Shown here one piece after another: positions 5,379 through 29,527 of a DNA stretch of 64,000 nt (positions are counted from its first letter, which is position 1; each line of letters begins with the position of its first letter). The notes beneath the pieces are model-generated. The model worked only from the letters and a program-made list of their open reading frames with translations, searched no databases and had not been told where the DNA came from. Source of the DNA: Prauserella cavernicola (GTDB lineage Bacteria; Actinomycetota; Actinomycetes; Mycobacteriales; Pseudonocardiaceae); NCBI RefSeq assembly GCF_016595675.1, contig NZ_JAENJH010000001.1, positions 310,001 through 374,000 on the forward strand. The letters are read 5' to 3'. A program made the translations under genes and the position numbers.

Positions 5379-6116
5379 ATGGCGACGACACAACCCTGGC
5401 TCGACATCACGCTGGAGGACGTCGCCGGCTGCCTCGTCGTGCGCCCGTCGGGTGAGCTGAGCGCCCGCACCTACGCCCAGCTCAGGGACACGCTCGTCAA
5501 ATGCGCCGTGGAGGAGCCGGACGCGGTGGTCGTCGACTTCGACGACCTCGAGATCGTCTCCACCGCGTCGCTGACGGTGCTCACCAGTGCCTACACGTGC
5601 ACGGCCGAGTGGCCGGGCGTACCGCTGTCGGTCGTGGTGCGCGATCCAGACAGGTTGCACCGGTTGCGCACATCCGCGATCGCCAGGTTCATCCCCATCC
5701 ATGCGGACCTGGAGTCGGCGGTGGCGGCCGTGGGCACACCGCCGCCCCGGCGCAGGGCGATCGCCACGATGACGGACGGCAGCGCGGGTGCGCTCGCCCG
5801 CGAGTTCTCGATGGGCGTGCTGCGGCGGTGGGACGTGCGCGGCAGGGACGACGACGTGAAGCTCCTCGTCACGGAGCTCGTCGAGAACACGGTGCGGCAC
5901 ACACTGTCGTTCGCGACGGTGCGCCTGGAACTGCGGGAGAACCTGCTGACGGTGGCCGTCGCCGACGACGACCCCAGTCCAGCGGTGCTGCGCGAACGCC
6001 CGGACGGCGTGCGGAAGGTGTCCGGGCTGCAAGTGGTCGCCCGGCTGGCGCGGGCGTGGGGCAGCGCTCCCACCCGAGCGGGCGGCAAGGTGGTGTGGGC
6101 GACGATTCGCGTGTGA
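5379..6116 (+). CDS. STAS domain fused to RsbW-like ATPase
   Basis: 245 residues joining two modules normally found as separate partners. Residues about 5-115 are a STAS (anti-anti-sigma) domain, with DFDDLEIVSTASLTVL where the phosphorylated Ser usually lies. Residues about 125-245 are a GHKL ATPase of the RsbW/SpoIIAB kinase type, with the N-box ELVENTVRH and a shortened G1 box (ADDDPSP). The start codon is one base past the cheB stop, so the two are co-translated. A fusion of antagonist and kinase suggests self-contained partner switching, possibly controlling a sigma factor or the neighbouring CheR. No sigma factor gene is in view. Confidence 0.82.
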   Translation: MATTQPWLDITLEDVAGCLVVRPSGELSARTYAQLRDTLVKCAVEEPDAVVVDFDDLEIVSTASLTVLTSAYTCTAEWPGVPLSVVVRDPDRLHRLRTSAIARFIPIHADLESAVAAVGTPPPRRRAIATMTDGSAGALAREFSMGVLRRWDVRGRDDDVKLLVTELVENTVRHTLSFATVRLELRENLLTVAVADDDPSPAVLRERPDGVRKVSGLQVVARLARAWGSAPTRAGGKVVWATIRV

Positions 6117-6161
6117 TCACCACGCCGACCACTGGTCGGGACGATTCCCCAGGACGCTACG

Positions 6162-8039
6162 GTGATGACTGTGAACGGCGTTGACGAGGGCACGACGGAT
6201 CCCGATTTCGAGGCTCTGCTGACCTACCTCAAGGAATCCAGGGGATTCGATTTCACAGGGTACAAAAGGGCGAGCCTCATGCGCCGCGTGCGCAGGCGCA
6301 TGAGTCAGATCAACGTGACCCAGTTCGCCGATTACGTCGACGTTCTCCAGGTCAACGCCGAGGAGTTCGTCGCGCTGTTCAACACGATTCTGATCAACGT
6401 CACCGCGTTCTTCCGCGACCAGGAGGCATGGGACTTCCTGCGTGACGACGTCATCCCCACGCTGCTGGCCGAGCGGACTCCCGACGACCCGATCCGGGTG
6501 TGGAGCGCGGGGTGCGCGTCAGGGGAGGAGGCATACAGCCTCGCTATCGTCCTGGCGGAGGCGCTGGGCGCCGAACAGTTCCGGCAGCGGGTGAAGATAT
6601 ACGCGACTGACGTCGACGACGAGGCCCTGGCGCAGGCGCGGCACGCCTCGTACGATCCGGCAGCGGTGGAAAGTGTTCCACCGGACCTGCTGGAGAAATA
6701 CTTCGAACTGCAGGGGGACCGGTACTCGTTCCGCAGCGATCTGCGCCGTTCCGTGATCTTCGGGCGCAACGATCTCGTGCAGGACGCGCCGATTTCGCGG
6801 ATCGACCTGCTGGTCTGCCGCAACACTTTGATGTATTTCAATGTCGAGACACAGACGAAGATTCTCAACCGGTTGCATTTCGCGCTGGCGCCGCGCGGCC
6901 TGCTTTTCCTGGGCCAGGCCGAGATGCTGCTGAGCCACACGAAGATCTTCGACCCGTTCGACCTGAAACGGCGGGTGTTCCGCAAGGCCGCGACCGCTCC
7001 GAGCGTGCTGAACCGCTTCGTCGCCGACACCTTGATCACCGACCGGCACGGGGAGGTCTCCGGAATCGGGCAGTTGCGGGAGCTGGCGTTCGCCGCGAGC
7101 CCGGTCGCGCAGATCGTGGTGACCGGTGACGACGTCGTCGCACTGGTCAACCAGCCCGCGGAGCAGATGTTCGGCCTGTCGAGCCGGGACGTGGGGCGGC
7201 TGCTGCGGGACCTGGAGATCTCGTACCGCCCGGTGGAGCTGCGTGCGTTCATCGAACAGGCCAAGCTCGAACGCAGGGCGATCCGCATCAAGGACGTGGA
7301 GTGGCGCAGGCCCGCCAGCGAGTCGAGCTGGTTCGAGGTGCACGTCAACCCGCTCGCCAACGCCGACAGCGGGCTCATCGGTGTGTCGGTCGTGTTCCAC
7401 GACGTGACGTCCTCGCGCACCCTGCTGGACGAGCTCGAGCAGGCGCACCGCCAGCTCGAGTCCACCTACGGCGAGCTCCAGTCCACGAACGAGGAGCTGG
7501 AGACCACCAACGAGGAACTCCAGTCGACCAACGAGGAACTGGAGACCACCAACGAGGAACTCCAGTCCACGAACGAGGAACTGGAGACGATGAACGAGGA
7601 GCTGCAGTCGACCAACGACGAGCTCCAGGTCATCAACGACACGTTGCGCGGCCGCACACTCGAGCTCGACGAGGTGAACAACTTCCTCGAGTCGATACTG
7701 ACGTCCATCAAGGCGGGCGTGGTGGTGCTGGATCCGGACATGCGCATCTCGGTGTGGAACTCCGGCGCCGAGGACCTCTGGGGCCTGCGCCACGAGGAGG
7801 CGGACGGCCAGCGCCTGTTCGGCCTCGACATCGGCCTGCCGCTGGACGAGATCCGCTCCGTGGTCGGCAGTACGCTCGCCGACCCGTCGTTCTCGGCGGA
7901 GCTGGAACTGACGGCGGTGAACCGGTTCGGCAGGCAGATCGAGCTGCGCCTGGTGTGCGGTGCTCTGCGCAGCCCCTCCGGCGCGCCGCAGGGCGTGATA
8001 CTGCTGATGGAGGCACGGGGAACCAAGCCGGTCGAGTGA
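6162..8039 (+). CDS. cheR: CheR-type methyltransferase with coiled coil and PAS domains
   Basis: 625 residues, about twice the size of a simple CheR. Residues 10-275: CheR all-alpha N-domain (GFDFTGYKRASLMRRVRRRM) and SAM-binding domain (VWSAGCASGEEAYSLA, then IDLLVCRNTLMYF). A PAS domain follows (about 300-425), then a long coiled coil of repeated Q-S-T-N-E-E-L / E-T-T-N-E-E-L heptads (about 437-495), then a second PAS (about 505-620). This is the CheR half of known CheB/CheR-PAS sensor proteins, split here from CheB by the STAS-ATPase gene. Starts GTG 6162 and ATG 6165 are adjacent. The PAS domains probably sense a small molecule or redox signal and the coil transmits it. Confidence 0.9.
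   Translation: MMTVNGVDEGTTDPDFEALLTYLKESRGFDFTGYKRASLMRRVRRRMSQINVTQFADYVDVLQVNAEEFVALFNTILINVTAFFRDQEAWDFLRDDVIPTLLAERTPDDPIRVWSAGCASGEEAYSLAIVLAEALGAEQFRQRVKIYATDVDDEALAQARHASYDPAAVESVPPDLLEKYFELQGDRYSFRSDLRRSVIFGRNDLVQDAPISRIDLLVCRNTLMYFNVETQTKILNRLHFALAPRGLLFLGQAEMLLSHTKIFDPFDLKRRVFRKAATAPSVLNRFVADTLITDRHGEVSGIGQLRELAFAASPVAQIVVTGDDVVALVNQPAEQMFGLSSRDVGRLLRDLEISYRPVELRAFIEQAKLERRAIRIKDVEWRRPASESSWFEVHVNPLANADSGLIGVSVVFHDVTSSRTLLDELEQAHRQLESTYGELQSTNEELETTNEELQSTNEELETTNEELQSTNEELETMNEELQSTNDELQVINDTLRGRTLELDEVNNFLESILTSIKAGVVVLDPDMRISVWNSGAEDLWGLRHEEADGQRLFGLDIGLPLDEIRSVVGSTLADPSFSAELELTAVNRFGRQIELRLVCGALRSPSGAPQGVILLMEARGTKPVE
7468..7626 (+). repeat. In-frame 42-bp tandem repeat coding the CheR coiled coil
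   Basis: Nearly four copies of a 42-bp unit encoding LQSTNEELETTNEE, with synonymous drift between copies (gaggaactc against gaggagctg). It is coding repetition of a 14-residue double heptad, not a mobile or CRISPR repeat. Copy number could vary by slippage or recombination, changing coil length between strains. Confidence 0.85.
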
Positions 8040-10135: not shown

Positions 10136-11998
10136 ATGAAGGTCGCGGCCGAACTGTCGGGCCTGGTCGTCGCGGTGCTCGTGGTCGCGGCGCTGGCACG
10201 GCGGCTCAACTGGTCGGCGCCGCTCTGCCTGGTCGTGGTCGGTGTCGGTCTGTCCTATGTGCCCGGTGTGCCCGAATTCGACCTGCACCCGCAACTGGTT
10301 CTGGTCGGCCTGCTGCCGCCGTTGCTGTACGCGACGGCCATCCGCTCGTCCCTGATCGACTTCCGAGCCAACCGCGGTGCGATCGCGCTGTTGTCGGTGG
10401 GGCTCGTCGTGTTCACGGCGGTCGGTGTGGGTGTGCTGGCGTGGCTGATCGTGCCCGGACTGCCCCTGGCGGCGGGCATCGCGCTGGGCGCCGTGGTGGC
10501 TCCTCCCGACGCGGTCGCCGCGAGCGCGGTGGCCCGCAGGGTCGGCCTGCCGCGCCGGATCGTGCGGCTGCTGGAGGGCGAGAGCTTGTTCAACGACGCC
10601 GCCGCGCTGGTCACCCTGCGCACCGCCATCGCGGCCATCGGCGGGTCGGTGACGGTGTGGCAGACGGGCGCGCAGTTCCTCGTCGCGGCCGTCGGTGGAA
10701 TCGTGGCGGGCCTCGTCGTCGGCGTCGGTGCGGCACAGTTGCGGGCCAGGATGGACGACCCGGTGCTCGACACGGCGTTCTCGTTCGCGCTGCCGTTCCT
10801 CGCCTACCTGCCCGCCGAGGTGGTCCACGGCTCCGGCGTGCTGGCCGTCGTGACGACGGGGCTGATCGTCGGCCACCAGACGCCGGCGGTGCTGTCCGGC
10901 CCTTCGCGCCTGGCCAGCAGACTGAACTGGCAGACGGTGCAGTTCCTGCTCGAGAACATGGTCTTCCTGCTCATCGGCCTGCAGTTGCGCCGCATCCTCG
11001 CCGAGGTGGCGGGCAGCGGCCTGACATCGCCGACCATCGTGGTGATCTGCGGAGCCGTGCTGGCGTCGACCATCGCGCTGCGGTTCGTGTGGATGTTCGG
11101 GATCGCGCTGCTGCGCAGGATCGCCGGGGCCCACGTCTGGCCCTGGCGGTACTCGACCGTCATCGCCTGGGCGGGCATGCGCGGCGTGGTCACCCTCGCG
11201 GCGGCGTTCGCCCTGCCCACCGACACTCCGCACCGGGGCGTGCTCGTGCTCGCGGCGTTCGTCGTCGTGGCGGGCACACTGCTGGTGCAGGGCACGACAC
11301 TGCCGGTGCTGGTGCGCAGGCTCCGGCTGCCCGCACCGGACCCGGCCGCCGACGCGCTCCAGGAAGCCGCCCTGCTGGACGAGATGACGCGTGCGGGGCT
11401 GGAGCGGCTCGAGCGGGTCCGTCAACCCGAGGACCCGGAGGAGGTCGTGCGGCGGCTGCACGAGCGCGTGCGCCACCGCTCGGACGAGGCGTGGGAGCAG
11501 CTCGGCAGCCGAAGCGGCGGCCAGGGGGAGACGCCGAGCGGGGCCTACCGGCGGCTGAGGCTGGAAATGCTGGAGGCCGAACGGCTGGAGTTCCTCACCG
11601 CACGGGGTGAACGCCGCTACGACGACGCCGTGCTGGAACGGATTCTCGACCTCATGGACATCGAGGAGTCTATGCTCGACCACGTGTCCGACGACACTGA
11701 CGAGAGCGAGCGGGAGCTGACCACCCCCGCCACGTCCAAGCGGTCGTGTGAGCACCTCACGGCCACGTTCCGCGAGGTGGAGCCGAGTTCGCCCGACTCG
11801 TGCCTGGCCTGTCTGGCCGAGCACAGTACGTGGGTGCATCTGCGGTTGTGCCTGGACTGCGGCAACGTCGCGTGCTGCGACTCCTCACCCCGGCGCCACG
11901 CCAGCGCGCACTTCCACGGCTCCGGCCACCCGGTGATGCGCAGCTTCGAGCCCGGCGAGAGCTGGCGCTGGTGTTTCGTCGACCGGCAACTCGGCTGA
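10136..11998 (+). CDS. CPA1-family Na+/H+ antiporter with C-terminal UBP zinc finger
   Basis: 620 residues. Residues 1-400 form a 12-13 helix CPA1 antiporter (NhaP/NHE type) with the ion-site stretch ALGAVVAPPDAVAASAVARR and the diagnostic GESLFNDAAALV. A helical cytoplasmic tail follows. The last 80 residues (CEHL, CLACLAEH, LRLCLDCGNVACCD, HASAHFHGSGHPVM) are a UBP-type zinc finger, a fold known for binding ubiquitin C-termini in eukaryotes but recurrent in actinobacterial antiporters. It probably senses or tethers something in the cytoplasm. The next gene starts nine bases downstream, with its ribosome-binding site overlapping this stop codon. Confidence 0.9.
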   Translation: MKVAAELSGLVVAVLVVAALARRLNWSAPLCLVVVGVGLSYVPGVPEFDLHPQLVLVGLLPPLLYATAIRSSLIDFRANRGAIALLSVGLVVFTAVGVGVLAWLIVPGLPLAAGIALGAVVAPPDAVAASAVARRVGLPRRIVRLLEGESLFNDAAALVTLRTAIAAIGGSVTVWQTGAQFLVAAVGGIVAGLVVGVGAAQLRARMDDPVLDTAFSFALPFLAYLPAEVVHGSGVLAVVTTGLIVGHQTPAVLSGPSRLASRLNWQTVQFLLENMVFLLIGLQLRRILAEVAGSGLTSPTIVVICGAVLASTIALRFVWMFGIALLRRIAGAHVWPWRYSTVIAWAGMRGVVTLAAAFALPTDTPHRGVLVLAAFVVVAGTLLVQGTTLPVLVRRLRLPAPDPAADALQEAALLDEMTRAGLERLERVRQPEDPEEVVRRLHERVRHRSDEAWEQLGSRSGGQGETPSGAYRRLRLEMLEAERLEFLTARGERRYDDAVLERILDLMDIEESMLDHVSDDTDESERELTTPATSKRSCEHLTATFREVEPSSPDSCLACLAEHSTWVHLRLCLDCGNVACCDSSPRRHASAHFHGSGHPVMRSFEPGESWRWCFVDRQLG

Positions 11999-25282: not shown

Positions 25283-26290
25283 CTACCGGTTCTCGGCCGC
25301 AGGCTCCCGTTCGGAACGGCGGGCCCAGTACGTGGCCAGCAGCGAGCCGGACACGTTGTGCCACACGGAGAACAGCGCGGCGGGCAGGGCGGCCAGCGGC
25401 GCGAAGTGGGTGGTCGCGAGGCTCGCGGCGAGGCCCGAGTTCTGCATGCCGACCTCCACGCTGACGGCGCGGCTCGAGGACTCGCCGAGCCCGGTGAGCC
25501 GTCCCGCGGTGTAGCCCAGCAGCAGTCCCGCGCCGTTGTGCGCGATCACGGCCAGCACGAGCAGCGCGCCGCTGGTGGCGATCACGTCGGCGTTGGCACC
25601 GACCACCGCGGCCACGACCAGCAGGATGCCCGCCGAGGACACCAGCGGCAGGTAGGGCAGCACGCGCACCACGAACCGGCCCGCCACCGACCGCAGCAGC
25701 ACGCCCGCCACGATGGGCAGCAGCACCACCTGCAGGATCGAGGCGAACAGATCGCCGAAGCCGACGGGCAGATCCGACCCGGCCAGCCACAGCACCAGCA
25801 GCGGCGTCAGCACCGGGGCGATCAGCGTCGCCACCGACGTCAGCGTCACCGAGAGCGCCACGTCGCCGCGGGCGAAGTAGACGATCACGTTGGAGGCCGT
25901 ACCGCCGGGTGAAGCGCCCACCAGGATCATGCCGACCAGCAGCATGCCGGTGAACCCGAACAGCGAGCCGATGCCCCACGCCGTCAGCGGCATGATCGTG
26001 AACTGCGCCAGCAGCCCGATCAGTACGGCGTGCGGCCTGCGCAGCACCAGCGCGAAGTCCGAGGCGCGCAGGGTCAGGCCCATCCCGAACATGATCACGC
26101 CCAGGAGCACGGGAACGTACTCCGAGAGCTTCGCCGCCTGATCCGGCACGAGCATCCCGGCGAGCCCGCCGAGCAACACCAGCACCGCGAACCACCGGCC
26201 CGCGAACTCGGCGACCTTGAGCCACACACCCCGCTGCTTCGCCATGTCCTCCGCCAGTGATCGCCGGTCCGGGCGATCACTGTAGGACAC
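25283..26290 (-). CDS. Bile acid:Na+ symporter (BASS) family transporter
   Basis: 335 residues with about ten membrane helices. BASS marks: VLLGVIMFGMGLTL near 65, ILVGASPGGTASNVIVYFARGDVALSV near 125 (crossover helix and sodium site) and SVEVGMQNSGLAASLA near 285. Bacterial members take up organic anions, such as 2-keto acids or pantoate, with Na+. Start GTG 26290, or ATG 26245 with GGAGG only two bases away; the core is unaffected. Upstream partner of DUF1989 in a two-gene operon. Substrate unknown. Confidence 0.85.
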   Translation of the reverse strand: MSYSDRPDRRSLAEDMAKQRGVWLKVAEFAGRWFAVLVLLGGLAGMLVPDQAAKLSEYVPVLLGVIMFGMGLTLRASDFALVLRRPHAVLIGLLAQFTIMPLTAWGIGSLFGFTGMLLVGMILVGASPGGTASNVIVYFARGDVALSVTLTSVATLIAPVLTPLLVLWLAGSDLPVGFGDLFASILQVVLLPIVAGVLLRSVAGRFVVRVLPYLPLVSSAGILLVVAAVVGANADVIATSGALLVLAVIAHNGAGLLLGYTAGRLTGLGESSSRAVSVEVGMQNSGLAASLATTHFAPLAALPAALFSVWHNVSGSLLATYWARRSEREPAAENR

Positions 26291-26340: not shown

Positions 26341-27756
26341 TCAGGGCCGCAGCGGCAGCCGCACCTGGAACCGTGTGTCGCCGGGAACGGACTCGACACG
26401 CAGGTCGCCGTGGTGCTTCTTCACCACGATGCGCCACGAGATGTCCAGACCGAGTCCGGTGCCCTCACCGAAGGGCTTGGTGGTGAAGAACGGGTCGTAG
26501 ATGCGGCCGAGGATCTCGGGGTCGATGCCGGGTCCGGTGTCGCCGATCTCGACGAGCAGCCGGTCGCCGTCGGCCGCCGTGCGCACCGTGAGGGTCCCTC
26601 CGCCGTCCATGGCCCAGACCGCGTTGTCGACGAGGTTCGTCCAGACCTGGTTGAGCTCCGCCGCGTAGACCGGGATCGGCGGGAGCTCGCGGTCGTAGTC
26701 CCGCACCACCGTGATGCCGTCGCCGATCTTGCGGGCCAGCATCGTGAGGGTGCTGTCGAGCAGCTCGTGCACGTCGACCGTCCGGTTGGGTGCGCGGTCG
26801 AGCTGGCTGTACTGCTTCGCGGCGCCGACGAGGCTGGACACGCGCGTGGTCGAGTCCTCGATCTCGCTCATCAGCTGTTCGGTCTCGATCGTGTAGTACA
26901 GCCAGCGGATCGCGCCCTCGAGCTGGTCGGGCTGACCGACGGTGGCCGCCACCTTCTCGAACCAGCTCGGACCGAGCCCGGCGGCGACGAAGGTCGCGGC
27001 CATCTCCCAGCCGCCGCCGATGTCGTGGTCGTCGAGCCAGTCGGTGACGGCGTCCTCACGGTCACCGGCCTCCATCGGACTCAGATCGGGCGCTTTGGCC
27101 GCGTGTTCGACCGCGTCCTCCTGCAGCGTGATGAGCGACTCGAGGATCGCCCTGTCGAACGGTCCGCTCGCGATGAGGCGCAGCTTGTGGCGCATCGCCG
27201 TGACGCGTTCGCGCAGCGAGCTGGTGGCGCGCACGGCCGCGGCGGCGGGGTTGTTCAGCTCGTGGGTGAGCCCCGCCGACAGCGAGCCGAGCGCGAGCAG
27301 CCGTTCGCGCTGGGCGACGGCCTGCTGCGTGTTGTGGAAGCCGAAGAACAGGCCCTCCAGCATGTGCACGGCCATGGGGAACCAGTCGCGCATCACGGAG
27401 GCGAGCTTCTCGGCGTCGAGCACGTAGAAGCGCGACGGCTCGGTGACGGTGAGCGTGTTGTTGTAGACCTGCGGGACCTGGTCGCCGAGATAGGCCTGCC
27501 ACGCGCCCGCGTACACCCCGCGCTGGGTGGTGCGGTGAGTCTCCACGTCGTCGTCGCCGACGCGGCGCGACAACGAGACCCCGCCCTCGATGAGGACGTA
27601 GAAGCACGTCGCGGGCTCGCCCTCGGTGAACAACACGCCCTGCTCGACGGTGGTGACGAACCCTTCCCGGCAGAGCCGGTCGAGCTGCTCGTCGGTGAGC
27701 TTCTCGAACAGGAACAGGGTGCGCAGTTCCTCGGCGTCGCAGGGGCCCTTGGTCAT
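26341..27756 (-). CDS. Sensor histidine kinase with N-terminal cyclic-nucleotide-binding-like domain
   Basis: 471 residues, soluble. Residues about 12-130: Crp-like beta-roll domain (LFEKLTDEQLDRLCREGFV, QGVLFTEGEPATCFYVLIEGGVSL). The phosphorylated His is His165 in SAGLTHELNNP. An unusual helical insert of about 130 residues separates it from the second half, which has N-box NQVWTNLVDNAVWAM, G1 DTGPGI, F-box PFFTTKPFGEGTGLGL and G2. Its start codon overlaps the stop of the receiver-flavoprotein gene (ATGA), and GGAG lies in that gene's last codons. The pair is almost certainly one two-component unit. Confidence 0.9.
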   Translation of the reverse strand: MTKGPCDAEELRTLFLFEKLTDEQLDRLCREGFVTTVEQGVLFTEGEPATCFYVLIEGGVSLSRRVGDDDVETHRTTQRGVYAGAWQAYLGDQVPQVYNNTLTVTEPSRFYVLDAEKLASVMRDWFPMAVHMLEGLFFGFHNTQQAVAQRERLLALGSLSAGLTHELNNPAAAAVRATSSLRERVTAMRHKLRLIASGPFDRAILESLITLQEDAVEHAAKAPDLSPMEAGDREDAVTDWLDDHDIGGGWEMAATFVAAGLGPSWFEKVAATVGQPDQLEGAIRWLYYTIETEQLMSEIEDSTTRVSSLVGAAKQYSQLDRAPNRTVDVHELLDSTLTMLARKIGDGITVVRDYDRELPPIPVYAAELNQVWTNLVDNAVWAMDGGGTLTVRTAADGDRLLVEIGDTGPGIDPEILGRIYDPFFTTKPFGEGTGLGLDISWRIVVKKHHGDLRVESVPGDTRFQVRLPLRP

Positions 27757-29429
27757 GGCTTCTCCAGGTAGCGGTGGACGAGGGAGACGGCCATCGCGCC
27801 GTCCCCGACGGCCGAGGCGACGCGCTTGACGGACTCGGCCCTGGCGTCCCCGGCCACGAATACGCCGGGCAGGCTTGTCTCGAGGTGGTAGGGGTCGCGC
27901 TCGGGGACCCAGCCCTGCGGCCGCTTGCCGTCCACGACCAGGTCGGGTCCGGCCAGTACGAACCCGGCGTCGTCACGGGCGACCACCCCGTCGAGCCAGT
28001 CGGTGTGCGGGCTGGCGCCGATGAACACGAACAGCCACGACGAGTCCACGAGTTCGACCTCGCCGCTGCGCAGGTCGCGCAGTTCAAGGCGTTCCAGGTG
28101 GTCCTCGCCGTGCGCGCAGACCACCTCGGTGCTGGTGCGCACCGTGATGTTGGGCTGGGCCGCGATCTGCTGGATGAGGTAGTGCGACATCGACGCCTCG
28201 AGCGAGGTGCCGCGCACCAGCATGGTCACCGACTTGGCGCTCCTGGCGAAGTAGACCGCGGCCTGGCCGGCGGAGTTGGCGCCGCCGACCACGTACACGT
28301 CCTGCTCGGCGCAGCTGGCGGCCTCGGTGAGCGCGGAGCCGTAGAACACGCCCTTGCTGGTCAGCTCGTCCAGGCCCGGCGCGCGGAGCTGCCGGTAGGA
28401 CACGCCCGTCGCGAGGATGACGGAGTGGGCGTGCAGTTGCGAACCGTCCGCGAAGCGCACCGAGCGGGCCGATCCGTGGGCGGAGAGTCCCACGGCGTCG
28501 CGGGTGGTGAGGACTTCGGCGCCGAACCGGGTGGCCTGCCGCCGCGCGCGGTCGGTGAGCTGGGAGCCCGAGACGCCGTCGGGGAAGCCGAGGTAGTTCT
28601 CGATGCGGGAGCTCTGCCCGGCCTGGCCTCCGGTGGCGGTGCGTTCGACCAGCACCGTGCGCAGTCCCTCCGACGCCGCGTAGACGGCGGCGCCGAGCCC
28701 GGCCGGGCCACCGCCGATCACCACGACGTCGTAGAAGTCCGACGACGGCACCGTCGACAGACCCACGCGTTCGGCGAGTTCGGCGTCGCTCGGGGCGACG
28801 AGCGCGTCGCCGCCCGGCGGGACGACCACCGGCAGCCGGAGCCCGTCCGCGCCCGCGGCGTCGAGCAGTCGCCTGCCCTCGGGCTCGTCGGCGAGGCACC
28901 AGCGGTAGGCGATCTGGTTGCGCGCGAGGAAGTCGCGGACCTCGTGCGAGCGCGCGGACCAGCGATGGCCGACCACCCTTGTCTCGGTGACGGGCGTGCG
29001 GTCGGACGTGCGCCAGGCGTCGAGCAGCGCGTCGACGACGGGGTAGAGCTTCTCCTCGGGCGGGTCCCACGGCTTGAGGAGATAGTGGTCGAGGTCGACG
29101 ACGTTGATGGCCTCGATCGCGGCCCCGGTGTCGGCGTAGGCGGTGAGCAGCACGCGCCGCGCGGCCGGGAACAGGTCCATCGCCTGCTCGAGGAACTCGA
29201 TGCCCGTCATGCCGGGCATCCGGTAGTCGGCGAGCAGCACGGCCACCTGATCGCCACGCAGCGTGATCTCGCGCAGGGCCTCCAGCGCCTGCTCACCCGA
29301 CTCGGCGCGCACGACGCGATGGTGCTCGCCGTAGCGGCGCCGCAGGTCTCGCGCGACGGCACGGGAGATGCTCGGATCGTCGTCCACCGTCAACAGGACC
29401 GGGCGCAGGCCGGCCAGACTCTCGGTCAC
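27753..29429 (-). CDS. Receiver domain fused to thioredoxin-reductase-like flavoprotein without redox cysteines
   Basis: 558 residues from GTG 29429 (a TTG 13 codons upstream lacks a ribosome-binding site). Residues about 10-135: response-regulator receiver, phosphorylated Asp about 68 in LLADYRMPG, Lys in LLKPWD. About 145-225: glutaredoxin-like segment with RWSARSHEVRDFL where C-x-x-C would be. About 235-558: FAD/NAD(P)H domain like thioredoxin reductase (VVIGGGPAGLGAAVYAASEG, ENYLGFPDGVSG, VYVVGGANSAGQAAVYFA, GVFVAGDAR). The CATC dithiol is missing: GSALTEAASCAEQ keeps one Cys. So phosphorylation probably controls an NAD(P)H:flavin reaction that does not use the usual dithiol. Coupled to the histidine kinase by ATGA overlap. 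Confidence 0.88.
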   Translation of the reverse strand: MTESLAGLRPVLLTVDDDPSISRAVARDLRRRYGEHHRVVRAESGEQALEALREITLRGDQVAVLLADYRMPGMTGIEFLEQAMDLFPAARRVLLTAYADTGAAIEAINVVDLDHYLLKPWDPPEEKLYPVVDALLDAWRTSDRTPVTETRVVGHRWSARSHEVRDFLARNQIAYRWCLADEPEGRRLLDAAGADGLRLPVVVPPGGDALVAPSDAELAERVGLSTVPSSDFYDVVVIGGGPAGLGAAVYAASEGLRTVLVERTATGGQAGQSSRIENYLGFPDGVSGSQLTDRARRQATRFGAEVLTTRDAVGLSAHGSARSVRFADGSQLHAHSVILATGVSYRQLRAPGLDELTSKGVFYGSALTEAASCAEQDVYVVGGANSAGQAAVYFARSAKSVTMLVRGTSLEASMSHYLIQQIAAQPNITVRTSTEVVCAHGEDHLERLELRDLRSGEVELVDSSWLFVFIGASPHTDWLDGVVARDDAGFVLAGPDLVVDGKRPQGWVPERDPYHLETSLPGVFVAGDARAESVKRVASAVGDGAMAVSLVHRYLEKP

Positions 29430-29527
29430 GGTGTCGAGTATGCCGCCACTGCCAGCCGACTCTGACAAATTACGCGGTTGAGGGACGGGCGTGGTGGGTA
29501 CGCGGTCGCCATGACGAAGGCGGCGAC

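Follow-up and report, generated by a model that had tools for sequence, protein, structure and literature searches.

A thioredoxin reductase-like response regulator lacking both dithiols and its cNMP-domain histidine kinase partner: a possible two-component module with a flavoenzyme output

The window, a stretch of 64,000 nucleotides from Prauserella cavernicola (contig NZ_JAENJH010000001.1, positions 310,001 to 374,000), encodes a conserved gene pair comprising a response regulator with a thioredoxin reductase (TrxR)-like flavoprotein output and a histidine kinase with a cNMP-binding-like domain (Table 1). With a rough probability of one half, we interpret this pair as a two-component module with a flavoenzyme instead of a transcription factor as its output, which would use phosphorylation to control an electron transfer that proceeds independently of dithiols. 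The sequences directly show the structure of the two genes, their domain homology, the residues conserved, the lack of both dithiols and the conservation of the gene pairing. The usual targets of response regulators are transcription and second messengers; if the above interpretation is true, a redox enzyme under direct two-component control would link signalling to NAD(P)H, bypassing gene expression. The flavoprotein family is common in both the family and the phylum of the host organism, with matches at E 1e-60 or better in 37/100 and 97/396 sampled genomes respectively, counts which include the genome under study as well as receiver-less and kinase-less forms.

Table 1. Features of the flavoprotein-kinase gene pair (positions in the window)
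Feature	Residues	Position	Strand	Remarks
Flavoprotein: receiver, Trx/Grx-like, TrxR-like		27753..29429	-	558 aa; GTG start at 29429
Receiver domain	10-135	29025..29402	-	D16-D18, D68 (29226-29228), T96, K119
Glutaredoxin/thioredoxin-like domain	146-225	28755..28994	-	Predicted beta-alpha-beta-alpha-beta-alpha; lacks active-site CxxC
WSARS	157-161	28947..28961	-	Site of WCPDC in dithiol-bearing relatives; start of predicted helix 159-170
TrxR-like FAD and NAD(P) domains	229-558	27756..28745	-	
YGSALTEA	363-370	28320..28343	-	Site of (F/Y)CATCDGx in TrxR
Single cysteine	C373	28311..28313	-	Invariant in close orthologues, variable in wider family
Dinucleotide motif VGGANSAGQAA	381-391	28257..28289	-	Contains Q389
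Arginine	R536	27822..27824	-	245/245 dithiol-free members
Histidine kinase with cNMP-like domain		26341..27756	-	471 aa; ATGA overlap with flavoprotein stop codon
cNMP-binding-like domain	9-123	27388..27732	-	Lacks canonical phosphate-binding cassette
Phospho-acceptor candidate, in LTHELNNPAAAA	H165	27262..27264	-	Invariant 110/110
Helical insertion, H-box helix to second dimerisation helix	~75-100 in length	26932..27159	-	Limits approximate
HATPase_c catalytic domain	367-470 (Pfam)	26347..26658	-	

Both genes are intact, and the four nucleotides that they share combine the kinase start with the flavoprotein stop, just as the sequence-only reading of this DNA had described. In 134 of 164 loci the last letters of the flavoprotein gene are ATGA, GTGA or TTGA, which serves as a proxy for overlap as these letters alone were scored. 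An upstream TTG at 29468 provides an alternative start that would extend the flavoprotein to 571 aa. A sequencing error, frameshift or pseudogene was ruled out by the intact frame and 110 concordant orthologues. The pair is small, easy to assay and apparently soluble.

The N-terminal module of the flavoprotein was recovered by the Pfam Response_reg profile (PF00072, residues 13-124, 52.3 bits against a cut-off of 30.2) and displays the full set of response regulator residues, namely the acidic pair, the phospho-acceptor aspartate, the Thr/Ser and the lysine, all of which are invariant in 110/110 close orthologues. These 110 are close kin by selection, since the search for related loci retained the best 80 of 576 relatives. 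Pyr_redox_2 (residues 233-544) is likewise detected above its gathering score; the output is indeed a TrxR-like FAD domain, as initially proposed, rather than a DNA-binding domain. The genome encodes three flavoproteins of this family, and the D, T and K of the receiver are retained only in the kinase-paired copy: one paralogue (L199) shows G, I and R in their place, and the other (L225) A and M for the T and K.

The segment between the receiver and the TrxR-like core aligns from end to end with the glutaredoxin-like domains of five dithiol-bearing relatives (L251-L255), which display GASWCPDCRRAK where the window protein has GHRWSARSHEVR; this alignment confirms the proposal that SARS stands in place of a CxxC. 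A profile of the orthologues matched these glutaredoxin domains with E-values from 2e-14 to 1e-8, and together with the predicted order of strands and helices this identifies the segment as possessing the glutaredoxin/thioredoxin fold. Pfam searches called Glutaredoxin in the one dithiol-bearing relative that was tested (L251) and in a dithiol-free relative with a cNMP domain (L228, E 4e-6), and recovered no family with the window's own segment. None of the 110 close orthologues has a CxxC at the glutaredoxin active-site position; two (L019 and L049) have one elsewhere in the segment, and three have a lone cysteine at position 161.

The core of the protein comprises FAD and NAD(P) domains of the TrxR fold, in which YGSALTEA aligns with FCATCDGP. 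The claimed replacement of CATC is thus upheld, with the qualification that the replacement as quoted earlier includes the cysteine C373; a CxxC at the TrxR active-site position occurs in 0/110 close orthologues. The score against the NCBIfam model TRX_reduct is 210, with a cut-off of 343. The 2'-phosphate motif HRRxxxR is absent as well: the genome's own TrxR has HRREEFRA where the window protein has VRGTSLEAS, which makes the use of NADPH doubtful, and NADH is our guess for the cofactor. With neither a CxxC nor an HRRxxxR motif, an ordinary thioredoxin reductase can be ruled out. Across the 245 dithiol-free members Q389, Y417 and L418 are unvarying, and R406 (243), M414 (242) and S415 (244) are nearly so. 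Q389 is replaced by E in the CxxC forms compared, and R536 corresponds to Q in the five CxxC forms with coverage of that position (L004 and L251-L254). These residues make up a near-invariant signature particular to the dithiol-free family (Q389, R406, MSxYL, R536), and the family's cofactor sites are not decaying.

An AF2 model of the flavoprotein (pLDDT 78.4, pTM 0.66) falls below a pLDDT of 50 at residues 264-290 and 529-539, stretches that probably lie near the flavin. Its superposition on TrxR is closer for the FR conformation (5mh4, Z 30.1, 2.3 A over 295 residues; 1f6m, Z 29.4, 2.9 A over 305) than for the FO form, where 5mjk gives 7.7 A over 285; this fit is weak evidence because the model is middling. 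The comparison with 8c16, from the group of TrxR-like ferredoxin/flavodoxin-NADP reductases and Bacillus Bdr, gave Z 25.3 and 3.3 A over 300 residues, with 21% identity over the aligned core.

The loss of the dithiols had been presented as a peculiarity of this protein, together with the question of whether it extends to relatives. It is a trait of a whole clade: among 250 relatives (254 less the short duplicates L001-L003 and the true TrxR L004) both CxxC motifs are absent in 245 and both are kept in five. As none retains exactly one of the two, the joint loss can be regarded as a family trait, and its confinement to this genome is ruled out. In a tree of 132 sequences, obtained after removing those more than 90% identical or with fewer than 200 core columns, the dithiol-free members all fall to the same side of a supported branch. 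Database names like thioredoxin-disulfide reductase are probably misleading for members that lack CxxC. Forms with a receiver and a nearby kinase also occur in cyanobacteria, Deinococcus and Paraburkholderia.

The partner kinase contains the H-, N- and G-box motifs HELNNP, NLVDNA, DTGPGI and GTGLGL and a HATPase_c domain (PF02518) that scores 83 bits, above the gathering score, which together identify it as a histidine kinase. Its fold matches that of ZraS (9jfj, Z 22.6 over 149 residues), and the 208 residues that align with KinB (3d36) span 315 residues of the model versus 211 of the KinB chain. The distance from the H to the N motif is 196-215 residues in 157 of 180 kinase ORFs (the other 23 have no measurable motif pair), which departs from an ordinary two-helix dimerisation hairpin; this sample leans toward the insertion because the search profile was built from insertion-bearing kinases. 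No HisKA match was recovered in the kinase by Pfam at E 0.01. The N-terminal cNMP-like domain, asserted at the outset, was detected above the gathering score (PF00027, residues 41-123, 33.9 bits against a cut-off of 27.5). The phosphate-binding cassette, with its cAMP-holding Glu and Arg, was seen in 0/110 orthologues and 5/64 other kinases when searched with a consensus pattern. The genome's second-best match to the kinase is confined to residues 296-469 (E 2.7e-14).

In the window and all of the other 109 close orthologues, a kinase is encoded on the same strand no more than 1.2 kb away. In the set of 141 members outside those 109 (L016-L124), which includes the window and some additional close orthologues sampled from the phylum, 67 have an intact receiver when the acidic pair is not required, and 56 of these adjoin a kinase. 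The corresponding counts are 0/34 for degenerate receivers (five with less than 1.5 kb on one side) and 0/39 for members lacking a receiver, the latter including the five CxxC forms and some (e.g. L214, L219, L238 and L243) that may hide a degenerate receiver. Requiring the acidic pair leaves 174 of the 250 relatives with an intact receiver, 164 with a kinase and 10 without. Contig ends do not account for six of the 11 kinase-less intact receivers in the set of 141 (L155, L180, L202 and L256-L258), since more than 5 kb of sequence is available on both sides; L155 has a kinase at a distance of 3 kb. The Fisher test for this association gives p 1.2e-17 and ignores relatedness, and the tree provides only three independent pairs, one in the expected direction, none against and two without a difference; the association was hence dropped as a statistically independent result. 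In hand-picked sets searched with Pfam, cNMP_binding was found on the flavoprotein itself in 10/10 receiver-less members and on the kinase in 9/10 diverse kinases. A noisy clustering of neighboring genes over 78 loci recovered zf-UBP and, among others, a family starting MVLHISATNPEHPG upstream in 35 Streptomyces loci.

Taken together, these contexts suggest that an NAD(P)H-flavin oxidoreductase is most likely acted on by a cNMP-like input, either directly or via phosphotransfer from His to Asp. We infer phosphotransfer, NAD(P)H-FAD turnover, a direction of control and an acceptor. The cNMP-like domain of the kinase would serve as the input, upon which the kinase would autophosphorylate at H165 and pass the phosphate to D68. 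The receiver could then act through the glutaredoxin-like domain, as a linker devoid of active-site cysteines, on the TrxR-fold FAD enzyme, in which electrons would flow from NAD(P)H to FAD and on to the acceptor, bypassing CxxC relays. The natural switch point might lie in how the NAD(P)H domain rotates over the flavin, a movement that exposes the dithiol in TrxR and the flavin in TrxR-like ferredoxin/flavodoxin-NADP reductases (FNRs). We give somewhat less than even odds to a more specific version, in which one dithiol-free TrxR-fold flavoenzyme receives the cNMP-like input by either of two interchangeable routes, a dedicated histidine kinase with a receiver or a direct fusion, and phosphorylation directly gates NAD(P)H electron flow to a non-thiol acceptor.

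Alternatively, the flavoprotein might be a flavin/NAD(H) sensor rather than an enzyme, which senses NAD(P)H or the redox state of the flavin and signals by protein contact, with the receiver setting the read-out; we consider this unlikely, although it is the strongest of the competing possibilities. The loss of both dithiol relays, even as the cofactor-site signature is kept, would suit such a role, and a contact partner might be the small zf-UBP protein encoded within 2.5 kb in 70 of the 77 orthologous loci with sufficient flank. This partner is a candidate by gene proximity, but in the window's own genome the sole zf-UBP match forms part of an antiporter fusion some 14 kb away from the pair. 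Moreover, CxxC-free TrxR-fold enzymes with turnover, namely the FNRs and Bdr, are known.

A slightly less probable proposal is that of a non-canonical thiol-disulfide reductase, which would reduce thioredoxin or other disulfides via other cysteines such as C373. This residue is a cysteine in 110/110 close orthologues, within which it may be important, and in 178 of the 245 dithiol-free members. Outside the 109 it is a cysteine in 69 of 136 dithiol-free members and replaced in the other 67; its replacement in 15 of 57 kinase-paired members rules it out as a family-wide essential remaining catalytic residue. Thiol chemistry via other cysteines retains some plausibility because a probable relative, the cNMP-TrxR protein ATII-TrxR, which very probably lacks CATC, is reported to reduce thioredoxin with a kcat of 28.4 s-1 and DTNB, using both NADPH and NADH (PMC6544261). 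ATII-TrxR and the annotated cNMP-domain thioredoxin-disulfide reductases very probably belong to the same core family, with a cNMP-like domain replacing the receiver. Three of the four cysteines named for ATII-TrxR (206, 223 and 376) match those of an ORF from C. metallidurans CH34 (249, 266 and 419) with a single offset, and C419 of the latter (VEAKLCKDE), a cNMP-TrxR protein without CATC, appears to be the equivalent of C373. Set against this, the comparison was made through named cysteine positions alone and the fourth (467) is unmatched in the CH34 ORF; the protein was obtained from E. coli BL21 by a His column and dialysis, which would permit carry-over of host TrxR, and the accessible text describes no cysteine mutants (PMC6544261). 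The idea that the TrxR part is a decayed scaffold, serving the receiver as a structural platform devoid of cofactor chemistry, draws on the loss of both catalytic dithiols and the paralogues with degenerate receivers, but is very improbable given the residues unvarying in 245/245 members (Q389, Y417, L418 and R536) and the FAD-domain families above cut-off.

The enzyme reading, i.e. phosphorylation-gated electron transfer by a dithiol-free flavoenzyme, can be compared with several known systems. The architecture is already in print, without a function: Table 1 of PMC9739842 lists the Streptomyces coelicolor kinase SCO7297 with the response regulator SCO7298 of the output class TrxB, which resemble the window pair in output class and in the order of the regulator and kinase genes; it is an unnamed list entry, for which the accessible passages give no function, cysteine status or partner. 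The Streptomyces sequences in our set share 73-76% identity with the window flavoprotein, and SCO7297/SCO7298 are presumably orthologous to the window pair. Census studies mention the same domain architecture, as a 'Mycobacterium-like' REC-thioredoxin reductase combination (Galperin et al. 2018, PMC5847659) and as a TrxB output class in one thermophilic cyanobacterium (PMC9953108); dithiol loss, the glutaredoxin-like domain, the pairing with a cNMP-kinase and the zf-UBP link go unmentioned in their accessible portions. A literature search, largely of open texts, found no paper on what the receiver-TrxR/cNMP-kinase pair does or on its missing cysteines, and the accessible parts of PMC8945050 and PMC6599016 contain nothing on the receiver-TrxR family. 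ATII-TrxR, unlike the window pair, shows a one-component wiring and is reported as a true thioredoxin reductase (PMC6544261). Low-Mr thioredoxin reductase and AhpF share the fold of the FAD and NAD(P) domains with the window flavoprotein, which differs from them in lacking CATC and HRRxxxR, in the change from Q to R at 536 and in a two-residue MS insertion. TrxR-like FNRs that lack CxxC provide an established precedent (PMC8564101). The TrxR fold devoid of CxxC that is seen in these FNRs and in Bacillus Bdr is likewise found in the window flavoprotein. The TrxR-like FNRs and Bdr are not known to carry a receiver. The glutaredoxin-TrxR fusions L251-L255 differ from the window flavoprotein in retaining WCPDC and CATC, in lacking a receiver and in that no kinase was found alongside; they share with it the glutaredoxin-like domain and TrxR core, and are the nearest dithiol-bearing relatives in the set.

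The start codon of the histidine kinase lies inside the stop codon of the flavoprotein gene, as had been noted earlier, with an ATGA shared by both genes; of 164 pairs, 134 show ATGA, GTGA or TTGA at the end of the flavoprotein gene. Pfam searches delineate a receiver (residues 13-124) and a pyridine-nucleotide oxidoreductase domain (233-544) in the flavoprotein, and cNMP-binding (41-123) and HATPase_c (367-470) domains in the kinase, in which no HisKA domain was recovered. Sequence and fold searches identify the oxidoreductase part as a thioredoxin-reductase (TrxR) fold, and its NCBIfam TrxR score is 210 bits, far below the 343-bit cut-off.

Features of the window with their positions and strands
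Feature	Position	Strand
Na+/H+ antiporter with C-terminal UBP-type zinc finger	10136-11998	+
SBF-type sodium symporter family gene, immediately downstream of the kinase	25283-26290	-
Histidine kinase, 471 residues	26341-27756	-
Predicted helical insertion in kinase dimerization region	26932-27159	-
Flavoprotein, 558 residues	27753-29429	-

The nearest dithiol-bearing relatives in our set are five glutaredoxin-TrxR fusions that carry WCPDC as well as CATC, drawn from a phylum sample (rows L251-L255 of the collected relatives). At the glutaredoxin-like active site these read GASWCPDCRRAK or GATWCPDCRRAK where the window has GHRWSARSHEVR, and their HFCATCDGPFY aligns with FYGSALTEAAS of the window, bearing out the claim of the sequence-only reading that both redox motifs are replaced. 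Its question of whether relatives share the cysteine loss is answered in the affirmative: both CxxC motifs are absent from 245 of 250 relatives and present in five, with none possessing a single one. No close ortholog among 110 bears a CxxC at the glutaredoxin-like active site or at the position of CATC. This set comprises the window, 29 members from the window's own family and another 80 out of named genomes (the best 80 of 576 relatives; chiefly Streptomyces, also Pseudonocardia, Frankia and Rhodococcus); in it, L019 and L049 have a CxxC elsewhere within the glutaredoxin-like segment. Dithiol absence is a trait of the whole family. A profile of the middle segment of the window's family matches the L251-L255 domains over the length of that segment (E 2e-14 to 1e-8); Pfam calls Glutaredoxin in the L251 domain and in L228, a dithiol-free relative of the cNMP form, and does not call it in the window's own middle segment. 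In a tree of 132 cores with the motif columns left out, the CxxC rows (L251-L255 and the genome's own TrxR, on a long branch) constitute one side of a supported branch; judging from this outgroup, we infer that the change was a loss.

Q389, Y417, L418 and R536 are present in all 245 dithiol-free proteins, R406 in 243, M414 in 242 and S415 in 244 of them, with position 389 being E in the CxxC forms printed and position 536 being Q in those covering it. By this comparison the site looks rebuilt rather than decayed. NADPH selectivity is probably weakened, because VRGTSLEAS in the window flavoprotein stands for the aligned HRREEFRA of the genome's own TrxR. The lone cysteine C373 is invariant in 110/110 close orthologs and occurs in 178/245 of all dithiol-free rows; outside the other 109 close orthologs (L016-L124) it is found in only 69/136 dithiol-free and 42/57 kinase-paired members. 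The predicted flavoprotein model has pLDDT 78.4 and pTM 0.66, with poor stretches at 264-290 and 529-539 that are probably near the flavin. In the FR state of TrxR, NADPH comes into contact with the flavin. The model superimposes worse on the FO forms 5mjk (7.7 A over 285) and 1trb (7.8 A over 288), the latter of which we take to be FO, than on FR-conformation structures, namely 5mh4 (2.3 A over 295) and 1f6m (2.9 A over 305). PMC8564101 gives 1F6M as the FR conformation. The better FR superposition of this middling model is suggestive only.

All 110 close orthologs conserve receiver residues D16-D18, D68, T96 and K119 as well as kinase H165, and a same-strand kinase lies within 1.2 kb of the flavoprotein gene in the window and in 109/109 other close orthologs. 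Among the 141 members outside these 109, a kinase adjoins 56 of 67 with intact receivers, the single one with a cut receiver, 0 of 34 with degenerate receivers and 0 of 39 classed as receiver-less (five being the CxxC rows). Degenerate receivers cluster on the tree, with just three independent pairs, one as expected, none against and two without difference; no kinase lies within 1.2 kb of six intact receivers whose flanks each exceed 5 kb. Two flavoprotein paralogs in the window's genome, L199 (about 6001-7629; D68 changed to G) and L225 (about 6001-7611; receiver T and K lost), fall in a clade mostly of degenerate-receiver members; no kinase was found beside either, and the next kinase match in this genome is weak and partial. 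The gene association is consistent with phosphotransfer pairing. In Caballeronia sp. NK8 (L165, 5986-10588) and Paraburkholderia sp. PGU19 (L154, 6421-11041) two related kinases flank the flavoprotein gene.

The predicted kinase model has extra helices at about 202-273, and its alignment with KinB (3d36) comprises 208 residues spanning 315 in the model and 211 in the chain, with ~100 residues left over. In 157 of 180 kinase ORFs, i.e. all those with measurable spacing, 196-215 residues separate the H-box from the N-box; the set was collected with a profile of insertion-bearing kinases. This insertion may serve in partner recognition or in sensing.

cNMP_binding is found at the N-terminus of 10/10 receiver-less flavoproteins examined, likewise on the flavoprotein homolog of C. 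metallidurans CH34, and on 9/10 diverse kinases examined; the tenth kinase (Nostoc, not immediately adjacent) carries a receiver instead. As cNMP_binding sits in both places, the same kind of input domain appears either fused to the flavoprotein or on a kinase talking to a flavoprotein-fused receiver. The flavoprotein belongs to a large family that has one-component wiring as an alternative, and the two wirings provide the best evidence for the cNMP-like domain as putative input and the flavoprotein as output. The canonical cAMP cassette is present in 0/110 orthologs, window included, and in 5/64 other kinases. Separately, a transposase and a bestrophin gene lie between the flavoprotein and the kinase in Nostoc; on two cyanobacterial plasmids (L155, L156) the flavoprotein gene follows glgX and an AGE-family epimerase; and in Methylobacterium (L160, 4533-8742) a hybrid histidine kinase gene directly follows a gene annotated as a cNMP-domain thioredoxin-disulfide reductase.

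Of 77 orthologous loci with sufficient flanking sequence, 70 have a small UBP-type zinc-finger (zf-UBP) gene at most 2.5 kb away; receiver-less forms in Paraburkholderia, Rhodococcus and Rhizobium also have such a gene as a neighbor. The sole match in the window's genome is the C-terminal region (residues 556-616) of the Na+/H+ antiporter; the place of the SBF-type symporter gene is the zf-UBP site in many orthologous loci.

With the initial observation confirmed, its interpretation, that phosphorylation may switch NAD(P)H oxidation or flavin-based sensing, can be sharpened: two-component control of a TrxR-fold flavoenzyme that lacks dithiols is plausible. The literature searched yielded neither a function nor a cysteine analysis for the receiver-TrxR/cNMP-kinase pair. 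REC-TrxR is already a known architecture (PMC5847659; PMC9953108), and PMC9739842 has an entry for SCO7297/SCO7298 of S. coelicolor, an RR-HK pair without a name whose class is given as TrxB. PMC6544261 describes ATII-TrxR as a cNMP-TrxR protein, 87% identical to one from C. metallidurans, made in E. coli and prepared by His column and dialysis, which used NADPH and NADH and reduced DTNB and thioredoxin. The CH34 cNMP-TrxR homolog, which may differ from the protein compared there, has no CATC (YYWASPVEAKLC). Three of the four cysteines named for ATII-TrxR in that text match it at one offset, set by hand (another fits only two), and one of these is the C373 equivalent. If the CH34 homolog is the comparison protein of PMC6544261, the family would take up electrons from NAD(P)H, a point in favor of turnover, and may also reduce disulfides, which argues against a thiol-free mechanism.
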